Of a DNA stretch of 64,000 nt, positions 4,801 to 58,931 are shown piece by piece; the first letter of the stretch is position 1; each line of letters begins with the position of its first letter. Source of the stretch: a virus; the IMG/VR virus record IMGVR_UViG_3300026484_000053, positions 124,001 to 188,000 of that record. The stretch is one strand, 5' to 3'. Made by a program: the position numbers and the translations under genes. Below the pieces are notes generated by a model, which did no database searches, was not told the origin of the DNA, and saw only the letters and a list, made by a program, of their open reading frames with translations.

Positions 4801-6009
4801 TTATTCCCAATCGAAGTAAGCACATTGTTCAGATGAACAATCTCCGGATTCGATTTCTATTATTTTTTCTTCTATTTCACTTGATAAGCCTTGTTCATCA
4901 AACGCTTGCAATAATAATTTAAATTTGCCGCTAGTATTAAACTTTATTGAATTATCTAAGTCAGTAGTTTGTTTAGTATCTAGGTGTATCCATGATTCTT
5001 CTGTGTTATCTCCTATAATATAATTCTTATCTACGTATACAGAAAGAGTAATATAGTCTAAGTGATCTTCTGGATCTACAGCGTTAGATTCTATTAACCA
5101 TGTTTGCGAACCGTCAGATTCATCAGTAAGAGTAGTAAGCATGTCTGTTGTAGGAGGTTGATTCTCTATCTCTATAGGTAATATTGTGTCGAAAGTAAGA
5201 TCTTCAAATCCATCATTCCATTCTGTAGTAACTTTAAAATAATAAGTACCTAAATCACTAAATTGATGTGTAAGCGTATCTGTCTCAACGTCGTCTATAT
5301 ACCAAGTTTGAGACGTTATTCTACTATCTGGATCCGTGTTCTCTATATCTACTACAGTGTCTTCATTAATTACAGGCTTTACAGGATCGTTAGTTAAGTC
5401 TACTGGTGGCTGTATATAACGTATTCTAATTGTCTTTGTAACTTCAGTTACTAATCCACATAAGTTAGTAACTTTTAATTTAATATCATAATCTCCAATG
5501 TCTGTAAACGTATGAGTAGTAATAGTATCGTAACCGTCTTCGAAATCGTATTCTATAGTGTCTATACCTACATTTGTACATAACGTAGCGCCATACCATT
5601 CTGCTCTATGGTAGTGAGTAGTGCCTTCATAATCCCATTGATATTCATCACTACTACTTTGATTAGCGCTTAACTCTTTATCTTTCCATCCATCGTTTAT
5701 AAATAACGTAGCACTAGGTGCCTGACATTCAAGTAACTGCATAGGTTGAGTATAACTGTCACTTCCATCTGATGTTATTTTAACTACGCAGCATTGCGTA
5801 TCCGTCCAACAATGAAGCAGTATAGTATCTCCATCAGCAAACACTACTCCTTGACCATCCCAGTCAGCGTCTTCTGAATCGAAGCTGACTTGTTGGTTTT
5901 CTGTTGCATGGTCATCGCTTGTATTACCGGTTTCGTAATGGAAACCATTATAATCACAATCTAACGCTACCTCGTCCTTGTCTACTATATCACTAACAAA
6001 ACTAGACAT
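4801..6009 (-). CDS. PKD/Ig-like repeat adhesin
   Basis: 402 acidic residues with PKD-type strands: THTFTDIGDYDIKLKVTN near residue 165, THQFSDLGTYYFKVTTEWND near 250, and a less regular third copy near 350. Copies of NDGW/NDGF and FEDGY mark the turns. Several cysteines near the N-terminus and a C-terminal CSSEQC suggest disulfides or a metal site. Such domains usually form rigid beta rods on surfaces, so a fibre or head-decoration role in binding the host is likely. The neighbours at 6112 and 7377 share the repeats. The start overlaps the upstream small membrane gene. Confidence 0.7.
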   Translation of the reverse strand: MSSFVSDIVDKDEVALDCDYNGFHYETGNTSDDHATENQQVSFDSEDADWDGQGVVFADGDTILLHCWTDTQCCVVKITSDGSDSYTQPMQLLECQAPSATLFINDGWKDKELSANQSSSDEYQWDYEGTTHYHRAEWYGATLCTNVGIDTIEYDFEDGYDTITTHTFTDIGDYDIKLKVTNLCGLVTEVTKTIRIRYIQPPVDLTNDPVKPVINEDTVVDIENTDPDSRITSQTWYIDDVETDTLTHQFSDLGTYYFKVTTEWNDGFEDLTFDTILPIEIENQPPTTDMLTTLTDESDGSQTWLIESNAVDPEDHLDYITLSVYVDKNYIIGDNTEESWIHLDTKQTTDLDNSIKFNTSGKFKLLLQAFDEQGLSSEIEEKIIEIESGDCSSEQCAYFDWE

Positions 6010-33754: not shown

Positions 33755-34292
33755 CACTAACACTCTAGTAGAGGTAAGTACTACAAGTGGAATGGTTTTA
33801 ATAAACCCTTCAGAAATATTAAGCGTTGAATGCACTAAAACTCCTAAAGATAGTAAATTTAAATTATATTCAAGTAATTATGAATATGTTATAGCATCAA
33901 GTACTAAATATTTTAGATGCAAAAGCACAGATTTAGATGATATAAACTATTCTGTTCTTGATACAACGGCTAATGAAGTGATGTCTAAAAATGAATATGC
34001 TAGTATAAACTATGCTGGTAAAAACTATGCTAGTATAAACGGTACAGAATACGAAGTGCATACTAAAGTTATAGGCGAGACAGAATACGAACATTTTATT
34101 ACGCTGCATTTTAAAAGTAATAAAGGTAATAAAGGTACTTATACGTGCAAAGTACCTGATTATACTACGTTTTGTAGTATAAATCACAAAAATGAAGATG
34201 TAACTGAAAAATACTCGACTGTAGTTCAAGACGAAATAAACATAAGAGAAAAGTTTAATAAGGTTTTTAAGACAAAAGAGAGGAACATATAA
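33741..34292 (+). CDS. Unknown protein with internal tandem repeat
   Basis: 183 residues, beta-rich at the start (LVEVSTTSGMVLINPSEILS). EYASINYAGKNYASINGTEY contains a short duplication (YASIN twice) from tandem DNA repeats. Its ATG lies 14 bases inside the previous gene and its stop overlaps the next ATG by one base, so it is translationally coupled on both sides. No family recognised. It ends the operon's longer part. Confidence 0.55.
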   Translation: MSYINTNTLVEVSTTSGMVLINPSEILSVECTKTPKDSKFKLYSSNYEYVIASSTKYFRCKSTDLDDINYSVLDTTANEVMSKNEYASINYAGKNYASINGTEYEVHTKVIGETEYEHFITLHFKSNKGNKGTYTCKVPDYTTFCSINHKNEDVTEKYSTVVQDEINIREKFNKVFKTKERNI

Positions 34293-34579
34293 TGAAAACG
34301 CTAACATTTGGTAACGATACGTTAAGCATAAACGGTTTTGTTATGAGAATATCTAAAATTGACTATTTCCATTCTGTATACGAAGGTAAGTATGGTCATG
34401 GACACAAATACACCTTACGTGTATCGATTAATAGCATGGAGCATGCACTTTTGAGTAAACATTATGATGATGATGTTGATGCTGAAGCCATTATGAAGAG
34501 AAAAGATGTATTTCATAAAGAATGTATGGAAGAAATTGGAAACTTAACTGAAGAACATACTGATAATAGAGAAATTTAA
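34292..34579 (+). CDS. Small unknown protein
   Basis: 95 residues with GAGAGGA 7 bases before the ATG. Beta-strand-rich N-terminal half (LTFGNDTLSINGFVMRISKI), then an acidic, histidine-containing helix (KHYDDDVDAEAIMKRKDVFH). No family recognised. It closes the TelA-like operon; a new early promoter follows directly. Confidence 0.55.
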   Translation: MKTLTFGNDTLSINGFVMRISKIDYFHSVYEGKYGHGHKYTLRVSINSMEHALLSKHYDDDVDAEAIMKRKDVFHKECMEEIGNLTEEHTDNREI

Positions 34580-34666
34580 TACTCGTTTAAAATAGTTATG
34601 ATATAATTATACATGATAAACACTTACAGTTGTAAGATTTATCAAATATTAAACAAACGAGACAAA
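34577..34666 (+). promoter_or_regulatory. Early promoter and hairpin leader of the RNase H gene
   Basis: TTTAATACTCG and TTTAAAAT tracts, then TGATATAAT (34599-34607). The leader begins GATAAA and folds as GATAAA..TTACA..TGTAA..TTTATC, a nearly continuous 11-bp hairpin at the 5' end. It ends GAGACAAAATGG. Confidence 0.65.
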
Positions 34667-35379
34667 ATGGCTAAGAAAAAGAAAACAACTTATATATTTT
34701 TTTTGATGGTAGTTCTAAAGAGAACTACACTGGATGTGGTATATACGACATGACAAATGACGTTAAAGTACACAAAAGTAACAATAAGACAGCAAATTCA
34801 GGATACGCAGAAAAAGCAGCACTAATATTTGCTATGCAATACGCATTTGATAACAACATCAATCAACCAATGTTCTTTACAGATAGGAAAGATCTTGCAA
34901 AAACAGGTATAGCTAAGAACTTTTTAAATAAGTTTAATTTTAGGCATCCAACAGACGCAAGGTGGCAACCAGAATTACATTGGATACCAAGAGAATTAAA
35001 CAAAGAAGCAGATAAAATAGCATCTAAACCTCCTGTAGTAAACTCTATCCAAATGAAAACACCAGTACAAGATATAGTAGGTGATAAATTAAGATCTTAT
35101 TCTTTAGACAGAAGAATTAATTTATTACAGAGATTAGCTAAAACCAAACAAGAAATGGAAATGGTTATACTTATTAAAGAACAAGTTAAAGCTCAATACA
35201 ACTTCCAAATAAATAAAGATACTAAAAAATTTCAGAAGTTTATTAATACAATCATAAGTTATGATGAAATGAGTAATTATACATGGAAAAGACTTAATAA
35301 GAAAGCTCGCAAAGATACAGTAACAGAATTTAAAGGTGATGCTATAGAAAACTTCATCAGATCTAGAAACTTAATATAA
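34667..35379 (+). CDS. Ribonuclease H (T4 RNase H1-type fold), interrupted by -1 frameshift in T8
   Basis: ATG 34667 reads MAKKKKTTYIFF; the frame then has to change by -1 in a run of eight T (34697-34704) to give DGSSKENYTGCGIYDMTND and the rest to 35379. The restored protein (about 237 residues) has the RNase H1 residues: Asp of FDGSS, Glu of GYAEKAAL, Asp of FFTDRKDL and Asp of NKEADKIAS, plus HWIPRELN. Without the first part the catalytic Asp is lost. It would remove RNA primers. A programmed -1 slip on U8, a real inactivating indel or a mis-called homopolymer are all possible. The C-terminal 100 residues are an unknown helical extension. Confidence 0.7.
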
Positions 35380-35388
35380 AGGATTAAA

Positions 35389-36642
35389 ATGAAATATTTT
35401 AAAACGCCGCATAAGCCGACAGCGTCGGAACTAGTAAACTGGTTCCAAATAGAATGCCCAGAAGAGGCAGAAGCAATGAAGGATTCTGATCATCATTATT
35501 TAGATACTGTACCTAATCCTTGGCACTACGAGTCGTCTGTTTGGACGCATACAATGATGGTACTTAAAGTAGCCGAAATACACAATGCGTCTAAGACTAA
35601 TCTTATTGCAGCATTGCTACACGATGTTGGTAAGCCTTTAGCTCAAGAATTTAAAGAACTAGAAGAACACCCATTCGGCAAATATAGATTTATAGGACAC
35701 GAAGGAATATCATTTCACTTAAGTATAAAGATACTTAATAAACTAGAAAAATTACAAGTACTGAACACAGAAGAAAAAATACACGTACTTAAGCTTATTT
35801 CATTGCATGGCTCGTTATTTGACTATATTAAAGACGGTAAAGAAACGTCTAATAGCTCTAAAGTATATAATATGTTTGAAAACACATTTAAAGGTAAACA
35901 ACAATTTATAGAACTAGTTAAGATGGTAAAATATGACCATATGGGTAGATTTTCTGTAGATATGGATAGCATTGACGATACGGCTGATAAGCTTGGTAGT
36001 AACAAGCCAGATGGTATATTTAACGATGCTAATTTTGGCACCAAACATACTAAAGATTTGGTGCACAAGAAGCAGCACAAAATGCAGCACAAAATGCAGC
36101 ACAAAATGCAGCAAACAAGTCAAATAGTAATATTTACAGGGTTACCTTGTAGTGGCAAAAGTACGCTTATAGAAAAGTATATAGAGTCGTCTACTATAGA
36201 TTACGAAGTTATTTCTAGAGATGTTATACTGATGCAATACGCTAATACTAATGCTTCGTTATCAGAAGAAATTACTTACTCTAAAATATGGCAAAACTTA
36301 TCTAAAGAAGATCATAAAGAAATCGATGATGAAACTAGAAAGGCTTTTATTGCAGCAATAAAACAGGATAAGAATATTATAATAGACATGACATCTATGA
36401 GTGCTAAAAGCAGAAGAAAATGGTATAGTTCTTTACCACCAAGATATTTTAAAAAGTCAGTAGTAATGTGTACTGATATAGATACGATAAAAGAAAGAAA
36501 TACTAAAAGAAATATTGATACAGGAAAACATATACCTCACAGAGCGTTTTTAGAAATGATGAAATCTTTTACTGTACCTACGTATGCTGAATTTGATGAA
36601 ATTAGCTTCATATTTGAAAACGAAACGAAACGAAATAATTAG
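35389..36642 (+). CDS. HD-Pnk: HD-domain phosphoesterase fused to polynucleotide kinase
   Basis: 417 residues. Residues 40-190 are an HD domain (HYESSVWTHT, then LLHDVGKP with His78-Asp79, GHEG, and YDHMGR). After a linker made of QHKM repeats (229-240) comes a P-loop kinase (GLPCSGKST, 251-259; ISRDVI; a lid-like KERNTKRN). The order matches the Runella-type HD-Pnk RNA-end-healing enzyme, where HD removes 2',3'-cyclic phosphate and the kinase phosphorylates 5'-OH. It is the functional counterpart of T4 PseT. The RlaP-type gene 860 bases on supports RNA repair. The RNA ligase partner is not seen in this window. Confidence 0.8.
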   Translation: MKYFKTPHKPTASELVNWFQIECPEEAEAMKDSDHHYLDTVPNPWHYESSVWTHTMMVLKVAEIHNASKTNLIAALLHDVGKPLAQEFKELEEHPFGKYRFIGHEGISFHLSIKILNKLEKLQVLNTEEKIHVLKLISLHGSLFDYIKDGKETSNSSKVYNMFENTFKGKQQFIELVKMVKYDHMGRFSVDMDSIDDTADKLGSNKPDGIFNDANFGTKHTKDLVHKKQHKMQHKMQHKMQQTSQIVIFTGLPCSGKSTLIEKYIESSTIDYEVISRDVILMQYANTNASLSEEITYSKIWQNLSKEDHKEIDDETRKAFIAAIKQDKNIIIDMTSMSAKSRRKWYSSLPPRYFKKSVVMCTDIDTIKERNTKRNIDTGKHIPHRAFLEMMKSFTVPTYAEFDEISFIFENETKRNN

Positions 36643-37457
36643 CGCGTGCGCACAGCTTGCCCCTTGCCTTTCGCCTCTTCCCCTAGGTCTTTCCTAAATA
36701 TGATAAGAAACGCATCCTTATATTAATGGATTATAGCTTAAAAGCTATAATCACAAACGTACGTTAACACATACGTGTGTTCCTAATAAAGTATATCTAT
36801 CTTAATCTATCTTAGTACCTAATAAAGTATATCTATCTTAATCTGTGTTATATTAATGTAATTATAATTTTTTGATGGGTTAGCTTGGGTTAGCTTGGGT
36901 ATTTCCTGGTAACAAGTCCTCCTAGACCCTTATAAAAAAAGCCTCTAAAAGTCCTAAAACTTTATACTGTTAAGTATCATTTACTGTAATTAATTACACG
37001 TCGAGCCAAGGAGTTCTGAATATGACGCACTGTCGCCAGTGTAAATGTAGAGTTTGGTACACATGTTTTTTGCAGAGCGACGGCTTTTTATACCGTAATA
37101 GTTATAAAAACTATATATTTGAGACATCAAACTCAAATTTCTGCTGGGGCTTATCTCTGCAAAAAACATCTAAACCAAACTCGGTCATGGTGATACAATA
37201 ACTATTTGTACCAGTTTATCTTGTTCTGAGCAACCTTCTTATAAAGACGATATTTCAGCCAGCCTAATTAAATGGCCATCCTTTTTTTAATTTGGAGAAT
37301 TTTCTGACGCCCAGCAGAAAACTTAATTCTTTATCCAAACTTTCTTTTTATACATAGATATTTTTTGAAAAGGGTAAGTAGTTATTAATTACTTTCTAAA
37401 CTATGTGTGACGATTGTTTATTATATTTATTTAACACCGACGTGTTTTAATACCGTT
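36643..37457 (+). ncRNA. Candidate large structured RNA in an 860-base gap
   Basis: No convincing ORF. Hairpins at 36729-36752 (GATTATAGCT/AGCTATAATC) and 36766-36781; a 27-base direct repeat at 36782-36808 and 36818-36844. A long stem pairs 37050-37077 (GAGTTTGGT, then ATGTTTTTTGCAGAG) with 37155-37182; inside are three hairpins (ACGG/CCGT, ATAGTT/AACTAT, TTTGAG/CTCAAA). The segment 37138-37150 (TTTCTGCTGGGGC) can pair long-range with 37309-37320 (GCCCAGCAGAAA). The density of perfect pairs points to a folded RNA of about 450-550 nt. Boundaries, promoter and class are unknown; an origin region is another possibility. Confidence 0.6.
36782..36844 (+). repeat. 27-base direct repeat, two copies
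   Basis: Two identical 27-base copies at 36782-36808 and 36818-36844, period 36, beginning CCTAATAAAG. They sit upstream of the structured RNA region and could be protein-binding sites. Confidence 0.7.
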
Positions 37458-37478
37458 TTAATCTTAATATGTTATAAT
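37443..37478 (+). promoter_or_regulatory. Early promoter of the RlaP gene
   Basis: TTTTAATACCG and TTTTAATCTT tracts 11 bp apart, then TGTTATAAT at 37470-37478, 28 bases before ATG 37506. Confidence 0.7.
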
Positions 37479-37505
37479 ATACTATCTAAAACAAAAGGAA
37501 ATAAT

Positions 37506-38816
37506 ATGAAAAATTTAGAATTTACAATCAACAACCAGAAATACGAGCTAATGGTTCTAATGATAAGCGGTAGCAAACTATACGGCAATTCAACTCCAGA
37601 ATCAGATATCGATTACAGAGGAATTTTTAAAGCCCATAACTGCACTAAACTTGGTTTATTAAACAAAGTAGAAAAACTTGATAGTTCGTTATTAATACCT
37701 GCTTTAAGAGAAGCTGGATTAGAATTAGAAGATACAGACGACATTATGTTACATGAAGTAAACAAGTTTACAGAAATGTGTTTAGACAACAACCCAAATA
37801 TACTTGACTTACTTTGCCATGATTTTATGAGTGACAACAACTTGTTCATATCAGATATGGGTCAATTATTTTTGCAAAGTCGTAATCTGTTCTTGTCTAA
37901 AAAGATTAAGTTCACATTTAGTGGTTATGCAATCGCTCAACTAAAGAAGATTAAGTCAAGAGATAAATGGATTAACAACTATCCAGATGCTAAGAAAATA
38001 CTTAATTTATTGTCTGAACAACATGATATACAAAATATAGACTTTAACTGGATATGCGATAACTTTGGAGGCCAAGTTGCTGAAAAGATTACAGGCGAAA
38101 CACCACGGAAGAATACTTCAATAAGTTCTCTTATAACATGGGATGCATTTAACACGCTTGCATGCAGTACTATAGCTGGACTCAAAGATATACCTTTAGA
38201 GTCTTACAGAATGCCTAGAATAATACATTATTGTACAATTAAAGACTTATCAGCTAAGACATCTACTATAACTCCATTCTTAGAGGATTTTCTTAACAAT
38301 AAGGCATCGTTCAGAACTATTAGTCCAAGTATGCTTATTGTATACGACCAAGGTAAAGGTTTATTTTCGAAAGAAGGTAAGTTAAAAGTTAACGATCCTG
38401 AGAAGATTGGAGAATTCAAGTTCATGCTTAGTATCAATTATCTACAACATAAACACGATAAAGATAATATTACTAAAATGTGGCATTGGCGATGTAATAG
38501 AAATGAAAAACGATCTGTACTAGAAGAGCAAGTTGGATACGACACTAAAAACGCATCGCATTTATTTAGATTGCTACTTAGCTGTAAAGACGTTCTTCAA
38601 ACAGGTGTATATCATCCAGAGCTAAAAGCTGAGACTCTTCAGCTAGTTAAAGACGTACGTGCTGGCAAGTATACGTATGGATGCATACTAGAAGAAAGTA
38701 CTAAACTTGATAATGAGTTATCTGAACTATACAAGACAAGCGCATTACAGCCTAAGCCAAATATAAAAGCAGCTAACGATTTACTTTTATTAATATTAGG
38801 AGCTGATTGTGAGTAA
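37506..38816 (+). CDS. RlaP-type nucleotidyltransferase (RNA repair, DNA polymerase beta fold)
   Basis: 436 residues from ATG 37506 (MKNLEFTINN) with AAAGGA upstream; the longer frame to 37407 runs through the promoter and is rejected. Residues 21-42 read SGSKLYGNSTPESDIDYRGI: the G-S and D-x-D (Asp34, Asp36) of the polymerase-beta nucleotidyltransferase fold, in the form seen in the RlaP family found beside RNA ligases. Its role in repair may be nucleotide addition at broken RNA ends. The rest is helical with WHWRCNRNEKRSVLEE. The nearby HD-Pnk gene supports the call. Confidence 0.7.
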   Translation: MKNLEFTINNQKYELMVLMISGSKLYGNSTPESDIDYRGIFKAHNCTKLGLLNKVEKLDSSLLIPALREAGLELEDTDDIMLHEVNKFTEMCLDNNPNILDLLCHDFMSDNNLFISDMGQLFLQSRNLFLSKKIKFTFSGYAIAQLKKIKSRDKWINNYPDAKKILNLLSEQHDIQNIDFNWICDNFGGQVAEKITGETPRKNTSISSLITWDAFNTLACSTIAGLKDIPLESYRMPRIIHYCTIKDLSAKTSTITPFLEDFLNNKASFRTISPSMLIVYDQGKGLFSKEGKLKVNDPEKIGEFKFMLSINYLQHKHDKDNITKMWHWRCNRNEKRSVLEEQVGYDTKNASHLFRLLLSCKDVLQTGVYHPELKAETLQLVKDVRAGKYTYGCILEESTKLDNELSELYKTSALQPKPNIKAANDLLLLILGADCE

Positions 38817-39635: not shown

Positions 39636-41963
39636 ATGACAAATGTACTAAACACAAAACCACAATGGGAAGAAGTAATTTCAAATACTAATAGATATCT
39701 ATATGAGCATTCTTACGAGTATGCAAAAAGACTATATGTAAGAGTATTTGATAACGATTTAAAAGATTCATATTTGTATGACCTAGGAACTCATTCATAC
39801 CAGCCTGAAATATTTGTTAGATGTACTGAAAAGACAGAATTTAAATCATTTGATAGGAAATATTATCTTAAGCAGTATCCATTTAATTCTATAGATGACA
39901 TGAAAAAAGAAGTACAGTACAATAAACGTGACAATGTTGTGTATTATGGTAATACATCAAGAATACAAAAAGTAATCAGAGACCACTGGAGTGATTCTCT
40001 TAAAGCTAACCACAAATTTAAGACGATGTGGTTAGATATTGAAACGTTATCAGGTGATATATATGCTAATGAAACTATAACTATAAAAGATAACGTTATA
40101 CAATGTAAAGATTTAGTTAAAATGGCTAGAAAGAAACAAAGTACTCTAACCAAAGGACAGAAATTAATACTTGAAGAAGAAGTTTTTGACCCTGAAGAAA
40201 ATAAAAAAGTAAAACTTAAAAACTCTTGCTTTTACAGAAAGCCTGGCTTTCCTAATTCAGATACTGCTAATTATCAAATTACGATGCTGCAAATGTACGA
40301 CACGCACACTAAAGAGTTTACAATATATGGTCTTAAAGAGTGGAATGGAACATATAAATCAAAATTTGGTAAAGTTAATTATTTCAAGTTCAGCAAAGAA
40401 AAAGATATGTTAAAAGCATTTATTAATCATTTCAGATTTACTAATCCTACAGCAGTTAACTCTTATAATGGATACGCATTCGATTACCCGTATATAGTTA
40501 ACAGAATGGAAAGAATTGGCGTAGACGCGTTAGCTCTGTCTCCAGTACGAAGTATAAAGAAAACAGAAAATATATCTACTAATGGCATGACGTATAAAGG
40601 CGTAGATATTAAAGGTGTATTCCTTTTAGATAGTATGGAATTCGTTATGAAGTACAGCTTTCTTAAAATACCATCTTTTAGCCTTAATGGAGTTGCTGCA
40701 GCGTTTAGACTTAATCCTAAAAAAGATACAAGTACATACCTGTCTTTCCAAGGATTTCAAGATGGTCATGGGTATGTATTTCCTAAAGAAGCACCGTCAG
40801 AGCCTGAAGCATTAAGAGTATATAAAACCCAATGTGATTACAGAGATGGTAAAATAAGTAAAGAAGAATTTAATTTAGTTATTTATGATAACTTCATGCA
40901 ATATTCTATCAGAGATGTCGAATTAATGTTAGAAATAGAAGAAAAAGCAAAAGTACAAGGTACAGCGCAGCTTATTGGATACATTTGTGGCGTTAATATG
41001 ACTGATGTGCAAGGTACTCTTAAGCAGTGGCTGAGTTATATGTATAATGACTGTATTAAAGATAATGTAGTTCTGCCTATAAAACAGCAAGACGCTAAAG
41101 ACGTAGTATATAAAGCTGGATGGACTACTTACTTTACTGGTAAAATTCATAAAGACGTAGTTTCATTTGATTATGCTGCACTTTATCCAAGTTGTATTAT
41201 ATCATGGAATATTGGAGCAGATACTTTAGTACCATTTGAAAAGTTGCCAGAAGAATTACAGTTAAAGTGTAAAGATAATTTTTATACAGAAGAAAACTTT
41301 GGTGAGCAAGGTCAATACACTTTAAAATATAAAAACGCTACAAATGATATACCTGAAGAGTTAGCATTCTTTTATAGACTTTATAACGATACTGAACTAC
41401 ATGATATGCTTAAGAAATATAATCTTAGTATGACTCCTAACTATCAATTCTATAGAAGAGATATAGAATCGTTCTCGGCCAAAGCAATGTCAGAGAATCT
41501 TGCTCTAAGAAATAAAGCTAAATATTCAGCCCAAGATCTTAATGCAAAATTAGAAGATATGAAAGCTAATAATTTAAAAGAAAAAGAACCGCAAAAATAC
41601 GACGAAATATTTGAAGAAGCGCAGTATCAAGAAGGATTATCAAACGCAGTTAAAACATTTAACAACTCGTATTATGGTAGTACTGCACTAAGCTCTAATC
41701 CTTTTAGTAATGGTAAACTTACGGCAGCAAGTATTACAACTGCTGGGAGATTAGCAGATATGATAGTTGCGTATGAGGTGCAGTCATATCTGCACGACAT
41801 TACAGCGACTGCTACTGTACGATTTGATGGATATTCTTATAGATGTAATGCATCTACTATTTTTACATGCGAAGATGGAGATAAAAGCATACTAACTTTA
41901 AATAACAATGATACGATAAAATGTATTACAAAATACATAAAAAAGGATAAAAATGCAGGGTAA
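39636..41963 (+). CDS. Family B DNA polymerase, N-terminal part (exonuclease, motifs A and B)
   Basis: 775 residues, AAAGGAG 6 bases before the ATG. The 3'-5' exonuclease has WLDIETLSGD (Asp134, Glu136) and NSYNGYAFDYPYIVNR, YSIRDVELM. Motif A is FDYAALYPSCIISW (Asp512); motif B is KTFNNSYYGSTALSS near residue 673. The gene stops before motif C, which is in the next gene. The last 35-40 residues (CNASTIFTCEDGDKSILTLN onward) do not look like T4-type polymerase and may be left from an insertion. Both parts together would be the T4 gp43-like replicative polymerase; split gp43 genes are known in Aeromonas T4-like phages. Confidence 0.9.
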   Translation: MTNVLNTKPQWEEVISNTNRYLYEHSYEYAKRLYVRVFDNDLKDSYLYDLGTHSYQPEIFVRCTEKTEFKSFDRKYYLKQYPFNSIDDMKKEVQYNKRDNVVYYGNTSRIQKVIRDHWSDSLKANHKFKTMWLDIETLSGDIYANETITIKDNVIQCKDLVKMARKKQSTLTKGQKLILEEEVFDPEENKKVKLKNSCFYRKPGFPNSDTANYQITMLQMYDTHTKEFTIYGLKEWNGTYKSKFGKVNYFKFSKEKDMLKAFINHFRFTNPTAVNSYNGYAFDYPYIVNRMERIGVDALALSPVRSIKKTENISTNGMTYKGVDIKGVFLLDSMEFVMKYSFLKIPSFSLNGVAAAFRLNPKKDTSTYLSFQGFQDGHGYVFPKEAPSEPEALRVYKTQCDYRDGKISKEEFNLVIYDNFMQYSIRDVELMLEIEEKAKVQGTAQLIGYICGVNMTDVQGTLKQWLSYMYNDCIKDNVVLPIKQQDAKDVVYKAGWTTYFTGKIHKDVVSFDYAALYPSCIISWNIGADTLVPFEKLPEELQLKCKDNFYTEENFGEQGQYTLKYKNATNDIPEELAFFYRLYNDTELHDMLKKYNLSMTPNYQFYRRDIESFSAKAMSENLALRNKAKYSAQDLNAKLEDMKANNLKEKEPQKYDEIFEEAQYQEGLSNAVKTFNNSYYGSTALSSNPFSNGKLTAASITTAGRLADMIVAYEVQSYLHDITATATVRFDGYSYRCNASTIFTCEDGDKSILTLNNNDTIKCITKYIKKDKNAG

Positions 41964-42915
41964 AAATTTTACTTTCACAAGAGATAAGCAAGAGAGGTTA
42001 TTACTAAATTCAGACACAGACAGTTTTTACATCTCTATAGCTCCTCTGATGGACGTATGGGACAGCAGGAACACTTCTGCAAGTGAAGAAAAAAGAATTG
42101 AAGTTCTTCTTAAGATAGTTAATACGAAAATACAACCAGTTATCGATAAAGTAGTTGATAACATTAACGATAGATTGAACTTATATGATAAAACTAGACT
42201 TATAGCTGAGAATGAAATAGTTGCAACTAGGTTTGTTAGTGCTGCTAGTAAAAGATATTTCGCACTCCAAGTAGCCAAAGATGGTACTATTCTTGCTAAG
42301 CCAAAGATAAAAGCTACTGGTATTTCTCTTATTGGTAAAGCTACGCCGCCAGAGGTTAAAGCCATACTTGAGCCGTTAACTAAGCTTATTCTTACCGAAG
42401 ATAATGACACGTTATTAACCTACATTAAAGAGAACAAAGATAGATTTTTAGCGTTAGATCCTTCTCAAGTAAGCAAAACACAAAGTGTTAATTCTCTTGA
42501 TTATCATTTCTGTAAAGCAGATAATACAGCTTGTGACTTCAAAATGGCTGTTAAAGGTACTAAAAGAGACGAAGAAAAGAATAAAAATCTTACAGCTCCT
42601 ATGAATAGTAAAGCAGCAATGGTGCATAACGCTATAGTAGATGAATTAGAGCTACAAAATATTTATGATTACGTGCATGAAGGTGATAACATTAAAATGT
42701 GTTATCTAAAAGTACCTAATCCTATTACTTACTCTTTAGACGTAGTAGGTTATAAAGATCCTAAATTTTTGGAAGACAGCGGTTTAACAAAATATGTTGA
42801 TTACGAGATACAATGGACAAAAGAATTTATAGCTAAGATTCTTCCAATTACTAATTCTCTTAAATGGACAGCAAATATAGAAGATATGTCTAATATTGAC
42901 GAAGACGAATGGTAG
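41953..42915 (+). CDS. Family B DNA polymerase, C-terminal part (motif C, thumb)
   Basis: 320 residues. ATG 41953 overlaps the stop of the first part by 11 bases in another frame and has AAAGGA 6 bases upstream, so both halves are made from one mRNA. Residues 17-26 (LLNSDTDSFY) hold motif C with catalytic Asp21 and Asp23. Then come KRYFALQV (KxY motif) and a thumb region. The C-terminus ends NIDEDEW, unlike the T4 clamp-binding tail. The halves must associate to be active because motifs A and C share the active site. Confidence 0.88.
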   Translation: MQGKNFTFTRDKQERLLLNSDTDSFYISIAPLMDVWDSRNTSASEEKRIEVLLKIVNTKIQPVIDKVVDNINDRLNLYDKTRLIAENEIVATRFVSAASKRYFALQVAKDGTILAKPKIKATGISLIGKATPPEVKAILEPLTKLILTEDNDTLLTYIKENKDRFLALDPSQVSKTQSVNSLDYHFCKADNTACDFKMAVKGTKRDEEKNKNLTAPMNSKAAMVHNAIVDELELQNIYDYVHEGDNIKMCYLKVPNPITYSLDVVGYKDPKFLEDSGLTKYVDYEIQWTKEFIAKILPITNSLKWTANIEDMSNIDEDEW

Positions 42916-44973: not shown

Positions 44974-45471
44974 ATGATAGAAAACATGATAGAAAAAAGA
45001 GACACTGATTTTTTAAAAGAAATTAAACGTGACGCCTTACAGGCAAGAAAGATAAAAGATCCTAAAGCTAGAATTTTAGTTACTCTTATAGGTGAAGCGT
45101 CTATGATAGGCAAGAACGATGGTAATAGAGATACTACTGACGATGAAGTTCTTAAAGTTATTCAGAAATTCGTTAAGAACTGTGATGAGAACATCATACA
45201 AAGAAAAAAGAATAACGAAGACTTAGAAGACTTCAAGTTCGAACTTGAAGTATTATCAGAGTACTTACCTAAGCAACTTGCTGAACACGATCTAAGAATG
45301 AAAATTGTGAATTACGTCGTTTTGAACGACTTAAGCTCAATGAGAGATATGGGTAAAGTAATGCAGATGCTACAGAAGCTCTTACCTGGCCAATATGAAG
45401 GCAAAATGGCCTCTAGACTCGTTAAAGAAGAATTAAAGAACATGGAAACTCTGCAAAAGGGTAGAAGATGA
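44974..45471 (+). CDS. GatB/YqeY-family protein
   Basis: 165 residues. The order LKEIKRDALQARKIKDPKAR, TDDEVLKVIQKFVKNCDENI, LEVLSEYLPKQL, then SSMRDMGKVMQMLQKLLPGQ and LVKEEL follows the YqeY family closely. YqeY resembles the tRNA-binding tail domain of GatB and is thought to act on tRNA or amidotransfer; its exact job is unknown. YqeY genes are known in several large phages. A tandem ATGATAGAAA lies at the start. It sits in the same early run as the nuclease. Confidence 0.85.
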   Translation: MIENMIEKRDTDFLKEIKRDALQARKIKDPKARILVTLIGEASMIGKNDGNRDTTDDEVLKVIQKFVKNCDENIIQRKKNNEDLEDFKFELEVLSEYLPKQLAEHDLRMKIVNYVVLNDLSSMRDMGKVMQMLQKLLPGQYEGKMASRLVKEELKNMETLQKGRR

Positions 45472-46253: not shown

Positions 46254-47168
46254 ATGGAAAGTATATCAATAGACATTGGATATGGTTCAACGAAAGTTTC
46301 CTATAGTGGAAAAGTAGTGCAAGTACCTACAGCTGTAGCATTTTCAACAGATGTAGGAATGTCAGTAGGTGACAATAAAAACGTATATGAATACAAAGGT
46401 GATTCTTACATAGTAGGTAAAGAGGCAATTAATTCTGCTTTTGATACAACAAGCTTTAACTTTATAAAAGATTACGCTGGACTAATAATTTACCATATTT
46501 TAAGTAAATTTGAAGACACAGACTTCGATAGACCAATTCAAGTTAACACTGGATTAGCTATTACAGACTACGGCAGAAGACAAGAGTTCTTAGATGCTAT
46601 ATCTGTAATAGAAGTAGATGGTAGAACTATTCATATAGATGCAACATGCGTACCTCAAGGTGCAGGTATTGCTATAGATTGGACTACAAACAATAATAAC
46701 GGCGAATACCCAGAATTATTAACAGTAATTGACATTGGATTTAACACTGTTGGATTAATCTGTTTTGAAGATGGAAGACCTGTTAAGTCAAATATTAAAG
46801 GATTCCCAGGTGCTGGAGTAACAACTATTGTAGCTCCATTAAAAGACTACCTAGAGAATACGTACAGTATGAAATACACTACGCAAGAAGCTCTTAAAAT
46901 CCTTAAAAAGGGTAAATATAAGTTTAACGGCGAAGATCAGCCTGAAATTACTACTAAGATTGAAGAGTTTAAAAGAAAGTTTATTAAGACTTTATTTAAT
47001 TCAATTCTTGTATCTGAAAAGAAATTACTTGCTACGTCAGACGCAGTTGTTATCGGCGGCGGTGGAGCATACTTTATCGAATCAGTACCTACACCACCAA
47101 ATGTTGTATTAGCTAACAGCCCTTACGAATTTTCAAATGTTAGTGGCTATTCTATAGGAGGAAAATAA
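46254..47168 (+). CDS. Actin-like segregation ATPase (ParM/Alp family)
   Basis: 304 residues, AAAGGA before the ATG. The actin fold is clear: phosphate-1 loop SIDIGYGSTK (4-13), phosphate-2 loop VIDIGFNTVGL (about 161-171), GFPGAG and the adenosine loop VVIGGGGAYFI near residue 270. Such proteins form filaments that push apart plasmid or phage DNA. The next gene resembles a ParR adapter and repeats lie upstream, giving a ParMRC-like layout. On a lytic-type phage it may move genomes or position replication sites. Confidence 0.85.
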   Translation: MESISIDIGYGSTKVSYSGKVVQVPTAVAFSTDVGMSVGDNKNVYEYKGDSYIVGKEAINSAFDTTSFNFIKDYAGLIIYHILSKFEDTDFDRPIQVNTGLAITDYGRRQEFLDAISVIEVDGRTIHIDATCVPQGAGIAIDWTTNNNNGEYPELLTVIDIGFNTVGLICFEDGRPVKSNIKGFPGAGVTTIVAPLKDYLENTYSMKYTTQEALKILKKGKYKFNGEDQPEITTKIEEFKRKFIKTLFNSILVSEKKLLATSDAVVIGGGGAYFIESVPTPPNVVLANSPYEFSNVSGYSIGGK

Positions 47169-54700: not shown

Positions 54701-55405
54701 ATGTTAAATCAAAACACAAGAAAAGTTATTAGCTCGTTAGCTCAAATTAATAACAGTCAAATTATATCTTACCCGGTAACTCTGGTAAAGAGCGGCACTA
54801 ATATGCAGGCGTTCTTAGATATGACAAAGTTAGATGAAGAAGAATTTAATAAAGTAGGTTTCTTCTCTGTTACAGAGTTTTTATCAATTACAGACATTGT
54901 AGAAGACGCACAAATTGAAGCAAATGAGGCTGGTACTATTACTATTAAGAACAGCAATACTTCTGTTACTTACAACAGTACTAACATTAAAATGCTTGAA
55001 GAAGCTGGATGTAGTGGTAATTTTGACTTAATCGATAAAATTAAATCGAACGAAACAATCGCATCGTTTAAGTTACTTAATGTAGAGCTTAATAAGATTA
55101 AAAAAATGTCAGGTTTATTAAAATCAATGATAATCTTTAGACTTACTGGTAATGGTTCTGATGTAGTAGTATCTTTAGAAGGAACTGAAAAAAGTTCAAA
55201 TAATTACGCTGTTACATTTGACGACGAAGCGTCATCTTCAGAGTTTGTTATGGACGTTAATATGTCTAATATTAATAAATTACCTGGTTCAGATTATGAC
55301 GTTACAGTACACAGAAGTACTAAAGGTTCTATTATCGTAGTATTTAGTTCTATTAATGTACCTGGCTTAAATATTTTCTGTACTGAAAAAGTTAAAAACA
55401 AATGA
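54701..55405 (+). CDS. Sliding clamp (T4 gp45-like)
   Basis: 234 residues. The gp45-type layout is visible: an N-terminal strand-rich domain (ISSLAQINNSQIISYPVTLV), FFSVTEFLSITDIVEDAQIE, a second domain (FKLLNVELNKIKKMSGLLKS), and the ending LPGSDYDVTVHRSTKGSIIV. T4 gp45 is 228 residues, a close match in length. It would form a trimeric ring that tethers the polymerase. The clamp loader genes are not in this window. It overlaps the next small gene by 4 bases. Confidence 0.8.
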   Translation: MLNQNTRKVISSLAQINNSQIISYPVTLVKSGTNMQAFLDMTKLDEEEFNKVGFFSVTEFLSITDIVEDAQIEANEAGTITIKNSNTSVTYNSTNIKMLEEAGCSGNFDLIDKIKSNETIASFKLLNVELNKIKKMSGLLKSMIIFRLTGNGSDVVVSLEGTEKSSNNYAVTFDDEASSSEFVMDVNMSNINKLPGSDYDVTVHRSTKGSIIVVFSSINVPGLNIFCTEKVKNK

Positions 55406-55662
55406 AAAAAATAGTATTCGCCGTAACGGCGTTAATTTTAACTTCTGAGCTTTATGCTGGAGGTATTTGGGACATGGTTAAGAATGCGTCAAGCGACGGA
55501 ACGATAAAGACTAAACAGTACACGATGGAAGTAGCTGGAGTAGATACTAGAGCATATGTATTTTACGTAAAAGAAATGGATTCAGTTTGCGTTCAGACTT
55601 ATAGTTCTCATGGTATACCAGCTATTAGTTGTAAAACGATGAAAGAAATTAAAGCAAACTAA
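55402..55662 (+). CDS. Small secreted protein
   Basis: 86 residues; ATGA overlap with the clamp gene. A signal peptide (MKKIVFAVTALILTSELYAG, cut probably after LYA) precedes a small beta protein with two cysteines (VCVQTYSSHGIPAISC) likely to form a disulfide in the periplasm. Function unknown. A periplasmic early protein could alter the envelope or block superinfection; this is only a guess. Confidence 0.65.
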   Translation: MKKIVFAVTALILTSELYAGGIWDMVKNASSDGTIKTKQYTMEVAGVDTRAYVFYVKEMDSVCVQTYSSHGIPAISCKTMKEIKAN

Positions 55663-55698
55663 AGCAAACTAAAGCAAAGCAAACTAAAGCAAATACAA
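55651..55698 (+). repeat. Tandem TAAAGCAAAC repeats over a stop codon
   Basis: About four copies of a 10-base unit AAAGCAAACT, one shortened, spanning the TAA of the 55402 gene. Confidence 0.65.
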
Positions 55699-55847: not shown

Positions 55848-56004
55848 GAACTATAGGTGTTCATATCTACCTAGCTTTTAGCTGAAACGATTGACGAGGG
55901 ATTTTACGGTTGCACATCGAAAAGAATGCTAACCGTACAAACGCGTAAGTATGTATTTAGCGCACTTACCGCACTTACAGCACTTACAGCATTTAGCAAA
56001 TATT
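55848..56004 (+). other. Gap before the RNA cluster
   Basis: No gene. A stem ACGGTT/AACCGT (near 55907-55941) and tandem GCACTTACA repeats (55960-55990) are visible. Confidence 0.4.
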
Positions 56005-56026
56005 TGTTATAATACACTTATAAATA
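56005..56026 (+). promoter_or_regulatory. Composite early plus late promoter of the tRNA-tmRNA cluster
   Basis: TGTTATAAT at 56005-56013 and TATAAATA at 56019-56026; TATAAT to TATAAATA start distance is 11, as before both GNAT genes. Confidence 0.65.
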
Positions 56027-56036
56027 GATCAAATAC

Positions 56037-56118
56037 GTATCTTTAGCTCAGTTGGTAGAGCACCTTCATTTAATTACTCAGAAGGTTGTCCGAAGTTCAA
56101 ATCTTTGAAGGTACACCA
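56037..56118 (+). tRNA. tRNA-like gene with 13-nt anticodon loop
   Basis: Acceptor GTATCTT/AAGGTAC (one G-U), D-stem GCTC/GAGC, anticodon stem CCTTC/GAAGG, T-stem CGAAG/CTTTG with loop TTCAAAT, discriminator A and encoded CCA. All stems are intact, but the anticodon loop is ATTTAATTACTCA, 13 nt rather than 7. The identity cannot be assigned. Total length 82, exactly 6 over the usual 76. Confidence 0.8.
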
Positions 56119-56127
56119 TTAATATAC

Positions 56128-56203
56128 GCTTCCATAGCTCAGCTGGTAGAGCAGCTGTTTTGTAAACAGCAGGTCATCCGTTCGAATCGGATTGGAAGCT
56201 CCA
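56128..56203 (+). tRNA. tRNA-Thr (anticodon UGU)
   Basis: 76 nt. Acceptor GCTTCCA/TGGAAGC, D-stem GCTC/GAGC, anticodon stem GCTGT/ACAGC with loop TTTGTAA (anticodon TGT), T-stem ATCCG/CGGAT with TTCGAAT, encoded CCA. It reads ACA, a frequent codon in this AT-rich genome. Confidence 0.95.
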
Positions 56204-56333: not shown

Positions 56334-56721
56334 GGGCACGAACAGGTATCGACTAGAGAGCAAGAGAAATATCGTTCAAGTAGTCATGTAGACTTAAAGT
56401 ACAAACAGACGTAACTGCAAACAACACAAATGCACCTCAAGAGGTAGCAGCTGCTTAAACCAGCTATCTAGCTAAGCTAGACAAGGTAAAGTACTTCCTT
56501 GATTACCCAATCGTACGACCAGATGGCGATCTTAAAGCGTGATAGATGATGGTTATAATCTAACTTCGGTAATATCTAACTAGATGTACTAACGTACGTA
56601 ATTGGAGAATTATTATGGTATCTTAAACCATTAAAACAACTCAACTCAAACTTGTAGCCATTCGGCACACGTTATAATCAAACTTTTTAGCACTCCGGTT
56701 CAATTCCGGACGTGTCCACCA
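56334..56721 (+). ncRNA. ssrA: tmRNA (transfer-messenger RNA), complete
   Basis: 388 nt. The 5' end GGGCACG pairs with CGTGTCC (56711-56717), followed by discriminator A and encoded CCA. The T-arm is CCGG-TTCAATT-CCGG. The 5' part GAACAGGTATCGACTAG matches the conserved tRNA-like opening (ATTC.GGATTCGAC in bacteria). The tag frame 56417-56458 begins GCA after GTAACT and reads ANNTNAPQEVAAA then TAA; the GCAAAC resume point and the Ala-Ala ending are typical. It would rescue stalled ribosomes and tag proteins for proteolysis. It is co-transcribed with two tRNAs. Confidence 0.93.
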
Positions 56722-56747: not shown

Positions 56748-56791
56748 TTTAATGCTATTTTAATACTATTTTAATATTAATATGTTATAAT
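56748..56791 (+). promoter_or_regulatory. Early promoter after tmRNA
   Basis: Three TTTAAT tracts in 11-bp steps, then TGTTATAAT at 56783-56791. Confidence 0.7.
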
Positions 56792-56967: not shown

Positions 56968-56993
56968 CAATATTATGTTATAATCTATAAATA
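56952..56993 (+). promoter_or_regulatory. Early promoter with nearby late-type box, topoisomerase
   Basis: TTTTAATACTCG and TTTAAC tracts, TGTTATAAT at 56976-56984, and TATAAATA at 56986-56993 (offset 7, not 11). Confidence 0.65.
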
Positions 56994-57008: not shown

Positions 57009-58931
57009 ATGGATAAAGAATTAAAAGACCAAGTTGTTAAAAAACTATCTGAAAAAGATCACATTCTCCAAAGAAGTGGAATGTACTTAGGTTCAAGTAC
57101 GACAGAGATAAAAGATGAATATATTTTAATTAAAGAAGATAATATCAGAAAGTTTAAACAAGTTAAACTTTCATACGTTCCTGGTTTAATAAAAATAATG
57201 AATGAGCTGATAGATAATTCTATAGATGAATACGTTAGAACTAACGGAACTTTTGCCACTAAAATAGATATTACACTTGACAACTCAACATTCTCTATAA
57301 GAGATAATGGAAGAGGTATTCCAGTTACCGAAGTAGAAGACGAACATAAAAACGTGCTGTACCAACCTGAATTAGCTTGGTGTCATGCGAGAGCTGGTTC
57401 AAATTTTGATGACGAAGTTTCAACTACTATAGGAACATACGGCGTAGGAAGTATGATATCTTCAGTTTTTAGTACAGAATTTACTGGTGTTTCAAACGAC
57501 GGTAAATTAAAATGCACAGTTAATTGCAAAGATAATAATAATACTATTAAAACTACTACAGCTAAAGCTGCAGGCCAAAGAGGCGTAGCTGTAACTATTA
57601 AGCCAGATTTAAAGAGATTTGGCTTGGATAAAATAGATGAAAGTCATATAAAGATGATAGAGAGAAGATTATACTATCTAAGTGTTTCATACCCACAAAT
57701 AACTTTTAAAATGAATGGCGAAAAAATCAGAGTTAAAGGAAAAGACTTCTTTAAAATGTTTGGTAATGAAGATGAAATTACTATTGAAGAAAATGAAAAT
57801 TTCTTAATAGCAATAATGCCAAGCGTTAACGACGAATTCCAACACTTTAGTTTAATGAACGGTTTAAATCTTGACGGCGGCGGCTCGCATATAGAATACA
57901 TATCTAACAGTATAACTTACCAAGTAAGAGAAAAACTTTTAAAGAAGCATAAAACTATTAAGCCCGCAGATGTTAAACGTAAATTATTTGTTCTAACTAT
58001 AATGAAAAACTTCGCTGCTCCTAAGTACGATAGTCAAACAAAAGAACGATTAACTAATAGTACTAAAGAAATTACAGATTATTTCACTGATCTTGATATG
58101 GACAGGTTAGTTAAAAAAGTACAGTATAATAAAACAATTATATCTTCTATTACTGATTACTTTAAAATAGCTGAAGCTTTTAAAAAGCAACAAGAGTTAA
58201 AAGCTATGGATAAGAAAACAACTAAAAAACCTAAAGACGATAATCTTATACCGCCAATTGGTCAATGGAATAGATTATTTTTAAGTGAAGGTCTATCAGC
58301 TAATGACTCTATAGCAAGTATACTTGGTAGAGAAGGTAACGGATTCTATGCTATGATGGGCTTACCTGTTAATGCTTACAGTGCACCAATTGAAACCATT
58401 ATTAAATCTGATAAATTAAAAGCGCTGCAAGCGATCATCGGATTGAAATATGGTGCAGAACATCAGCAAGATATTAACTTTAACGAGATAATACTTGCTA
58501 CCGATCAGGATCTAGCCGGATATAATATACGTGCTTTACTAATCGGTACATTCTATAGGTTTGCCAGAAACCTAATAGAAGACGGTAAGATAAAAATACT
58601 TAACACACCACTGTTCGTTTGTACTAAGAAAAGCGACAGGTCTGAAAAGCTTCAAGATTGGTTCTATAGCTTTGAAGAGCAAAGAGCACATGAGAAAAAG
58701 CACGGAGACAAGTTTATATACGCTTATAAAAAAGGTCTATCATCTTGGGATGCAAAAGGTGAACTTGATGTAGTAATCGAGAAAGCAGGTTTAGAGCCAA
58801 TGCTGCAGATACTTACGATAGAAGATGCAGAGAAAGATGCAGAGACTATAGATAACTGGTTAAGTGGATTAAACGCTGATATAAGAAAAGAAATGCTAGA
58901 AGGCTATGAGTTTTCTATCAATGCAATGTAG
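57009..58931 (+). CDS. Type II topoisomerase, ATPase/Toprim subunit (T4 gp39-like)
   Basis: 640 residues, AAAGGA before the ATG. GHKL ATPase: ELIDNSIDEY (Asn), IRDNGRGIP (Asp-Gly), and GTYGVGSM. Transducer residues follow, then Toprim with LFLSEGLSAND (Glu427; most relatives have EGDSA) and ATDQDLAGYNI (Asp499, Asp501). In T4 this part is split between gp39 and gp60, but here it is one gene. With the 58970 gene it forms the enzyme that relaxes DNA and helps replication. The Leu in EGLSA is a notable difference, but the acidic metal ligands remain. Confidence 0.9.
   Translation: MDKELKDQVVKKLSEKDHILQRSGMYLGSSTTEIKDEYILIKEDNIRKFKQVKLSYVPGLIKIMNELIDNSIDEYVRTNGTFATKIDITLDNSTFSIRDNGRGIPVTEVEDEHKNVLYQPELAWCHARAGSNFDDEVSTTIGTYGVGSMISSVFSTEFTGVSNDGKLKCTVNCKDNNNTIKTTTAKAAGQRGVAVTIKPDLKRFGLDKIDESHIKMIERRLYYLSVSYPQITFKMNGEKIRVKGKDFFKMFGNEDEITIEENENFLIAIMPSVNDEFQHFSLMNGLNLDGGGSHIEYISNSITYQVREKLLKKHKTIKPADVKRKLFVLTIMKNFAAPKYDSQTKERLTNSTKEITDYFTDLDMDRLVKKVQYNKTIISSITDYFKIAEAFKKQQELKAMDKKTTKKPKDDNLIPPIGQWNRLFLSEGLSANDSIASILGREGNGFYAMMGLPVNAYSAPIETIIKSDKLKALQAIIGLKYGAEHQQDINFNEIILATDQDLAGYNIRALLIGTFYRFARNLIEDGKIKILNTPLFVCTKKSDRSEKLQDWFYSFEEQRAHEKKHGDKFIYAYKKGLSSWDAKGELDVVIEKAGLEPMLQILTIEDAEKDAETIDNWLSGLNADIRKEMLEGYEFSINAM

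Follow-up and report, generated by a model that had tools for sequence, protein, structure and literature searches.

The tmRNA gene, its neighbours and their promoter

The window analysed here (64,000 nucleotides, GC 0.32) is the stretch from base 124001 to base 188000 of the 193,700-base IMG/VR virus record IMGVR_UViG_3300026484_000053. It contains a one-piece tmRNA gene (ssrA) preceded by two tRNA genes, with the sliding clamp gene upstream and the gene for the large subunit of the topoisomerase downstream (Table 1). The virus is a distant T4-like phage of bacteria. This assignment is based on T4-type topoisomerase subunits, clamp, UvsW helicase and late promoters, all of which are present, and on the low identity of the topoisomerase large subunit, about 35–36% at most to the best listed known phages. 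The topoisomerase used as bait in viral contigs gave no match. The DNA polymerase is encoded in two overlapping ORFs (39636–42915) that match positions 10–612 and 570–843 of profile phrog_262, and short tandem repeats of AAAGCAAACT (55642–55693) lie at the end of the ORF 55402–55662.

Table 1. Features of the tmRNA region and associated phage genes. Positions refer to the window unless marked as record positions.
Feature	Position	Strand	Support or detail
DNA polymerase sliding clamp (gp45-like)	54701–55405	+	phrog_223, E 3e-18
Tandem repeats of GCACTTACA, 3.8 copies	55962–55995	+	just upstream of the tRNA/tmRNA promoter
Composite promoter of the tRNA/tmRNA cluster	56005–56026	+	extended -10 TGTTATAAT, 56005–56013; T4-type late TATAAATA, 56019–56026
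tRNA with 13-nt anticodon loop AUUUAAUUACUCA	56037–56118	+	normal arms, encoded CCA; RF00005, 51.7 bits
tRNA-Thr(UGU)	56128–56203	+	encoded CCA; RF00005, 69.1 bits; ARAGORN
tmRNA (ssrA), one-piece, 388 nt	56334–56721	+	RF00023 full-length; ARAGORN
Acceptor stem, 5' strand GGGCACG	56334–56340	+	holds G3 of the G3·U70 pair
UAACU before the resume codon	56412–56416	+	U(-5), A(-4), counterparts of E. coli U85/A86
Tag reading frame GCA...TAA, ANNTNAPQEVAAA*	56417–56458	+	resume codon 56417–56419
T-arm UCCGG-UUCAAUU-CCGGA	56694–56710	+	perfect
Acceptor stem, 3' strand CGUGUCC, discriminator A73, encoded CCA	56711–56721	+	
Composite promoter of the topoisomerase large-subunit gene	56976–56993		its own promoter
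T4-type DNA topoisomerase II, large subunit	57009–58931	+	
HD domain and P-loop kinase, polynucleotide-kinase-like	35389–36642	+	
RlaP-type RNA-repair nucleotidyltransferase	37407–38816	+	PF10127, 51.1 bits (cut-off 23)
SmpB (outside the window)	record 5514–5963		PF01668, 155.6 bits, E 1e-46
RNA ligase (outside the window)	record 34059–35174		PF09414

The Rfam model RF00023 aligns end to end with the tmRNA gene (model positions 1–374) at 57.7 bits and E 5e-20, and ARAGORN calls a tmRNA with identical ends. The gathering cut-off of the model is 47 bits, so the margin is only about 11 bits, and the alignment is weak in the central part. The preliminary description had proposed a complete phage tmRNA here, and this holds under the covariance model; the parts that it named, acceptor, T-arm, resume GCA, tag reading frame and CCA, are all intact. 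The tRNA-like domain (TLD) is of the alanine type, with a T-arm, A73, CCA and an acceptor stem of 7 bp that is paired throughout and has one G3·U70 wobble. Alanyl-tRNA synthetase (AlaRS) needs this wobble in the acceptor stem. Candidates for the pseudoknots PK1–PK4 are present, but shuffled sequence gives them too (15/60 and 20/60); the candidate PK1 stem AAGU/ACUU occurs as well in a distantly related phage contig, G082. The model for permuted two-piece tmRNA (RF04321) was rejected, as it reaches 39.7 bits against a cut-off of 47 and its match borrows the adjoining tRNA-Thr.

The first of the two tRNAs has a trait that the preliminary description does not mention, an anticodon loop of 13 nt, 6 nt over normal. 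ARAGORN can fit a standard cloverleaf to it only by assuming a 6-nt 'intron', and several of its nearest phage matches are tRNA-Thr genes that are about 6 nt shorter. An insertion, a decoy or an assembly error is possible.

In the promoter of the cluster, the late element TATAAATA starts 5 nt after TGTTATAAT. The arrangement TTATAAT-N(0-20)-TATAAATA is found 5 times in the window versus 0.20 expected, a number that 0 of 100 shuffles reach, and TGTTATAAT alone is found 17 times versus 2.86 expected. Across the record pieces there are 47 sites of TGTTATAAT; ORFs of at least 100 aa make up 85% of the record but hold just 12 of these sites. Most sites between genes are accompanied by TTTAAT tracts 11 nt apart and have no -35 box (for example window positions 56783, 56976 and 60350). 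The sigma-70 consensus of Campylobacter and Helicobacter combines an extended TGxTATAAT with a periodic A/T-rich pattern (PMC3656092), and by analogy the style of these promoters hints at a Campylobacterota host. The promoter of the tRNA/tmRNA cluster has no TTTAAT tracts; 9-nt repeats of GCACTTACA lie upstream of it instead. Transcription of the tmRNA together with two tRNAs behind a composite promoter had also been described. The promoter and both tRNAs are real, and the layout is consistent with co-transcription.

Resume codon and tag

The resume context UAACU GCAAAC shares U(-5) and A(-4) with other tmRNAs and is followed by a short tag reading frame and a stop codon (56412–56458). In E. 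coli the corresponding context is UAGUC, and A86, the -4 base, is the main determinant of the frame (PMC2481249). The contig G082 has the homologous context UUAACUGCAAACAAUACAAAU, and ARAGORN reads its tag as ANNTNYSVVVAA. For the phage studied here, ARAGORN proposes the tag APQEVAAA from a later GCA five codons downstream, which we reject because it skips the conserved resume context. Since UAACU precedes the GCA at 56417 and both context and tag start have their homologues in G082, the tag is the longer ANNTNAPQEVAAA, the sequence originally read from this locus.

The tag pattern ANNTNAP has 16 matches in 84,980 bacterial and archaeal genomes. At none of the 16 does ARAGORN find a tmRNA, and the origin of the tag in a host is therefore not traced. 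ANNTNAP gave no match in viral contigs, and for the broader pattern ANNTN the only viral match that is a tmRNA is G082. A blastn search with the tmRNA found no match among plasmids; its sole match among phages, 30 nt in Sinorhizobium phage Phosso, was discarded, as Phosso has no tmRNA over the cut-off. The tag end ...VAAA resembles ordinary degradation tags, and a search of the phage record for a homologue of the adaptor SspB found none. The earlier idea that the tag re-directs tagged proteins thus finds no positive support.

A phage SmpB and its co-occurrence with tmRNA

The same record encodes SmpB. The protein scores above the PF01668 cut-off of 27 bits over its whole length, exceeds both NCBIfam equivalog cut-offs, including TIGR00086 (150.1 versus 119.1; 157.9 versus 130), and matches 15 distinct solved SmpB sequences (best E 5e-27). 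An alignment of phage SmpBs has 23 invariant columns. The C-terminal tail of this phage's protein, the part that enters the mRNA channel, reads AKGLKHYDKR... and keeps the KG..DKR motif; by eye, the phage tail lacks a conserved counterpart of E. coli W147. The smpB gene overlaps a preceding gamma-glutamylcyclotransferase-like gene by 14 bp, and the two stand behind a TGTTATAAT promoter at record position 4924. With a distance of about 19 kb between smpB and the tmRNA gene, even assuming circular permutation, the two do not form one operon.

The phage that carries tmRNA and SmpB also has a set for RNA repair, made up of the RNA ligase, RlaP and the HD-kinase protein. The combination of ligase and RlaP has been described as such a set in jumbo phages (PMC7824862), and the HD-kinase protein may act in RNA end healing. 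A protein of the YqeY family (GatB-tail-like, tRNA-binding) is encoded at 44974–45471.

For the pair, both genes, their intact sequence determinants and the promoter motif are observed. We consider it likely that the tmRNA gene is a functional phage ssrA which, together with the phage's own SmpB, makes up a phage-borne trans-translation pair that rescues stalled ribosomes in infection.

The occurrence of the pair in other viruses bears on this reading. SmpB itself is common, as alignment confirmed it at 225 viral loci, and a tmRNA over the cut-off is present in 9 of 41 SmpB-bearing IMG/VR records tested, against 0 of 44 records that share another gene with this phage; here and in the counts below, the records were picked by search, many are fragments, and kinship among them is ignored. 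On this basis, the 9 of 41 suggest that the tmRNA–SmpB pair recurs in large phages. Both genes are found in three Lak phages (MK250016/24/29) and one 636-kb phage (LR756504). G082 (3300026484_000250) encodes an RNA ligase 54% identical to that of the present phage, an SmpB, and a tmRNA whose tag likewise starts with ANNTN. In the 193-kb viral contig G088 (3300026549_000034), tmRNA and smpB are 0.9 kb apart (169015–170647); by eye, the gene between them is M23-peptidase-like. The closest relative found is G083 (terminase about 50%, UvsW 48% and SmpB 51% identical), a fragment with SmpB and no tmRNA in its 96.8 kb. It also encodes a counterpart, about 50% identical, of the actin-like (ParM/ALP-type) protein at 46254–47168 of the window.

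No SmpB was found in the 36 IMG/VR records from tmRNA-oriented scans, which include contigs of 121–223 kb, so that phage tmRNAs often do without an SmpB of their own. The main rival to the phage-pair reading follows from here: the tmRNA may work with host SmpB while the phage SmpB serves some other or further purpose, for example aiding host tmRNA, without any dedicated pair. The SmpB without tmRNA in G083 is in line with this, as is the finding that H. pylori SmpB functions with E. coli tmRNA (PMC2862035). However, both genes are retained in the present record, G082, G088, the three Lak phages and the 636-kb phage, they are near neighbours in G088, and most of the negative records are fragments. 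We regard use of host SmpB as unlikely.

Neither SmpB nor a tmRNA over the cut-off is present in any of the 44 IMG/VR records that share one conserved gene with this phage. This absence, and the weak alignment in the middle of the molecule, would also be expected if the tmRNA were a recently captured, non-functional passenger derived from a host ssrA. Yet TLD and tag are intact, a phage-type composite promoter stands in front, smpB is retained too and a homologous tag is found in G082, which makes a passenger very improbable.

Proposed role of the pair and known systems

If the phage-borne pair is functional, the tmRNA would be transcribed with the two tRNAs, the extended -10 element serving the unmodified host polymerase and TATAAATA the T4-type late apparatus, and would be expressed both early and late. 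Host AlaRS would charge it with alanine (G3·U70, A73, CCA), and SmpB and EF-Tu would bring the charged tmRNA to ribosomes that have run to the 3' end of a cleaved or truncated mRNA and stalled there. Translation would resume at the GCA at 56417, append A-ANNTNAPQEVAAA and end at UAA, by which the ribosome is freed, and the ...VAAA end would direct the tagged product to one of the host's proteases, probably ClpXP. The most likely benefit would be that ribosomes are kept free while phage takeover or host defence cuts mRNA and tRNA, with RNA ligase, RlaP and the HD-kinase acting alongside the pair. The preliminary description had suggested replacement of a host tmRNA lost or inhibited in infection. 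This fits better than could be seen from the tmRNA alone: as SmpB is encoded too, both components specific to trans-translation can come from the phage.

A further step would be that tmRNA and SmpB are co-adapted to an orthogonal ribosome rescue which, joined by RNA ligase, RlaP and HD-kinase, overcomes host defences that act by cleaving mRNA and tRNA, and that the tRNA with the 13-nt loop belongs to the same programme, as a decoy or as a tRNA resistant to nucleases. We see this extension as decidedly speculative and rather improbable. The opposite function, an inhibitor or decoy RNA that titrates host SmpB or ribosomes and does not rescue them, has its model in mycobacteriophage DS6A, which carries little beyond the tRNA-like domain of tmRNA; such molecules can inhibit tmRNA (PMC4131195). 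Here, however, the mRNA part is complete, with a conserved resume context and a degradation-like VAAA tag end, and the phage adds SmpB and does not deplete it, so that a decoy appears extremely improbable.

Discussions of trans-translation usually assign it to the host, as a process on which some phages depend; in its absence the plating of lambda-immP22 drops about 10,000-fold (PMC2862035). In the present phage both specific parts are carried by the virus. Such a pair makes it possible to ask whether a virus protects its ribosomes from RNA-cutting immunity, and natural tmRNA–SmpB pairs are usable for tests of partner specificity.

Phage tmRNAs had been called uncommon. With 402 of 18,146 phage genomes by 2021, or 2.3% (PMC9004378), this is true in relative terms, and their rarity was overstated. 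Less common than a phage tmRNA as such is a tmRNA with an SmpB partner and an RNA-repair set in one phage. Since phage tmRNAs (PMC4131195) and SmpB in huge phages (PMC7162821) are already reported, the novelty is modest; new are the combination of tmRNA, SmpB and RNA repair in one T4-type phage of about 194 kb, a tag untraced to a host, and evidence for recurrence of the pair.

With the bacterial one-piece tmRNA (RF00023), the phage RNA shares the end-to-end model match, the TLD with G3·U70, the encoded CCA, U(-5)A(-4) before GCA and a short tag with an alanine end. It differs in being a phage gene within a tRNA cluster behind an early/late composite promoter, and the scan of bacterial genomes turned up no tmRNA with this tag. 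The huge phages (PMC7162821; Lak MK250016/24/29, LR756504) likewise have SmpB and a tmRNA over the cut-off in one phage, but in genomes of 540–636 kb, whereas the present record has about 194 kb and T4-type replication genes. G082 and G088 share the pair, and G082 also the tag start, while their SmpBs are 43–44% identical to the one described here and their other gene content differs. Mycobacteriophages Bxz1 and Wildcat and Bacillus phage G are lytic phages with a tmRNA, strongly expressed in Wildcat and scoring 67.6 bits with RF00023 for phage G in our analysis; the three are absent among the SmpB matches listed for INPHARED (60 of 67). The Melnitz/pelagiphage tmRNA (PMC9004378) likewise belongs to a marine T4-like myophage; it is two-piece, permuted and riboswitch-linked, whereas that of the present phage is one-piece.
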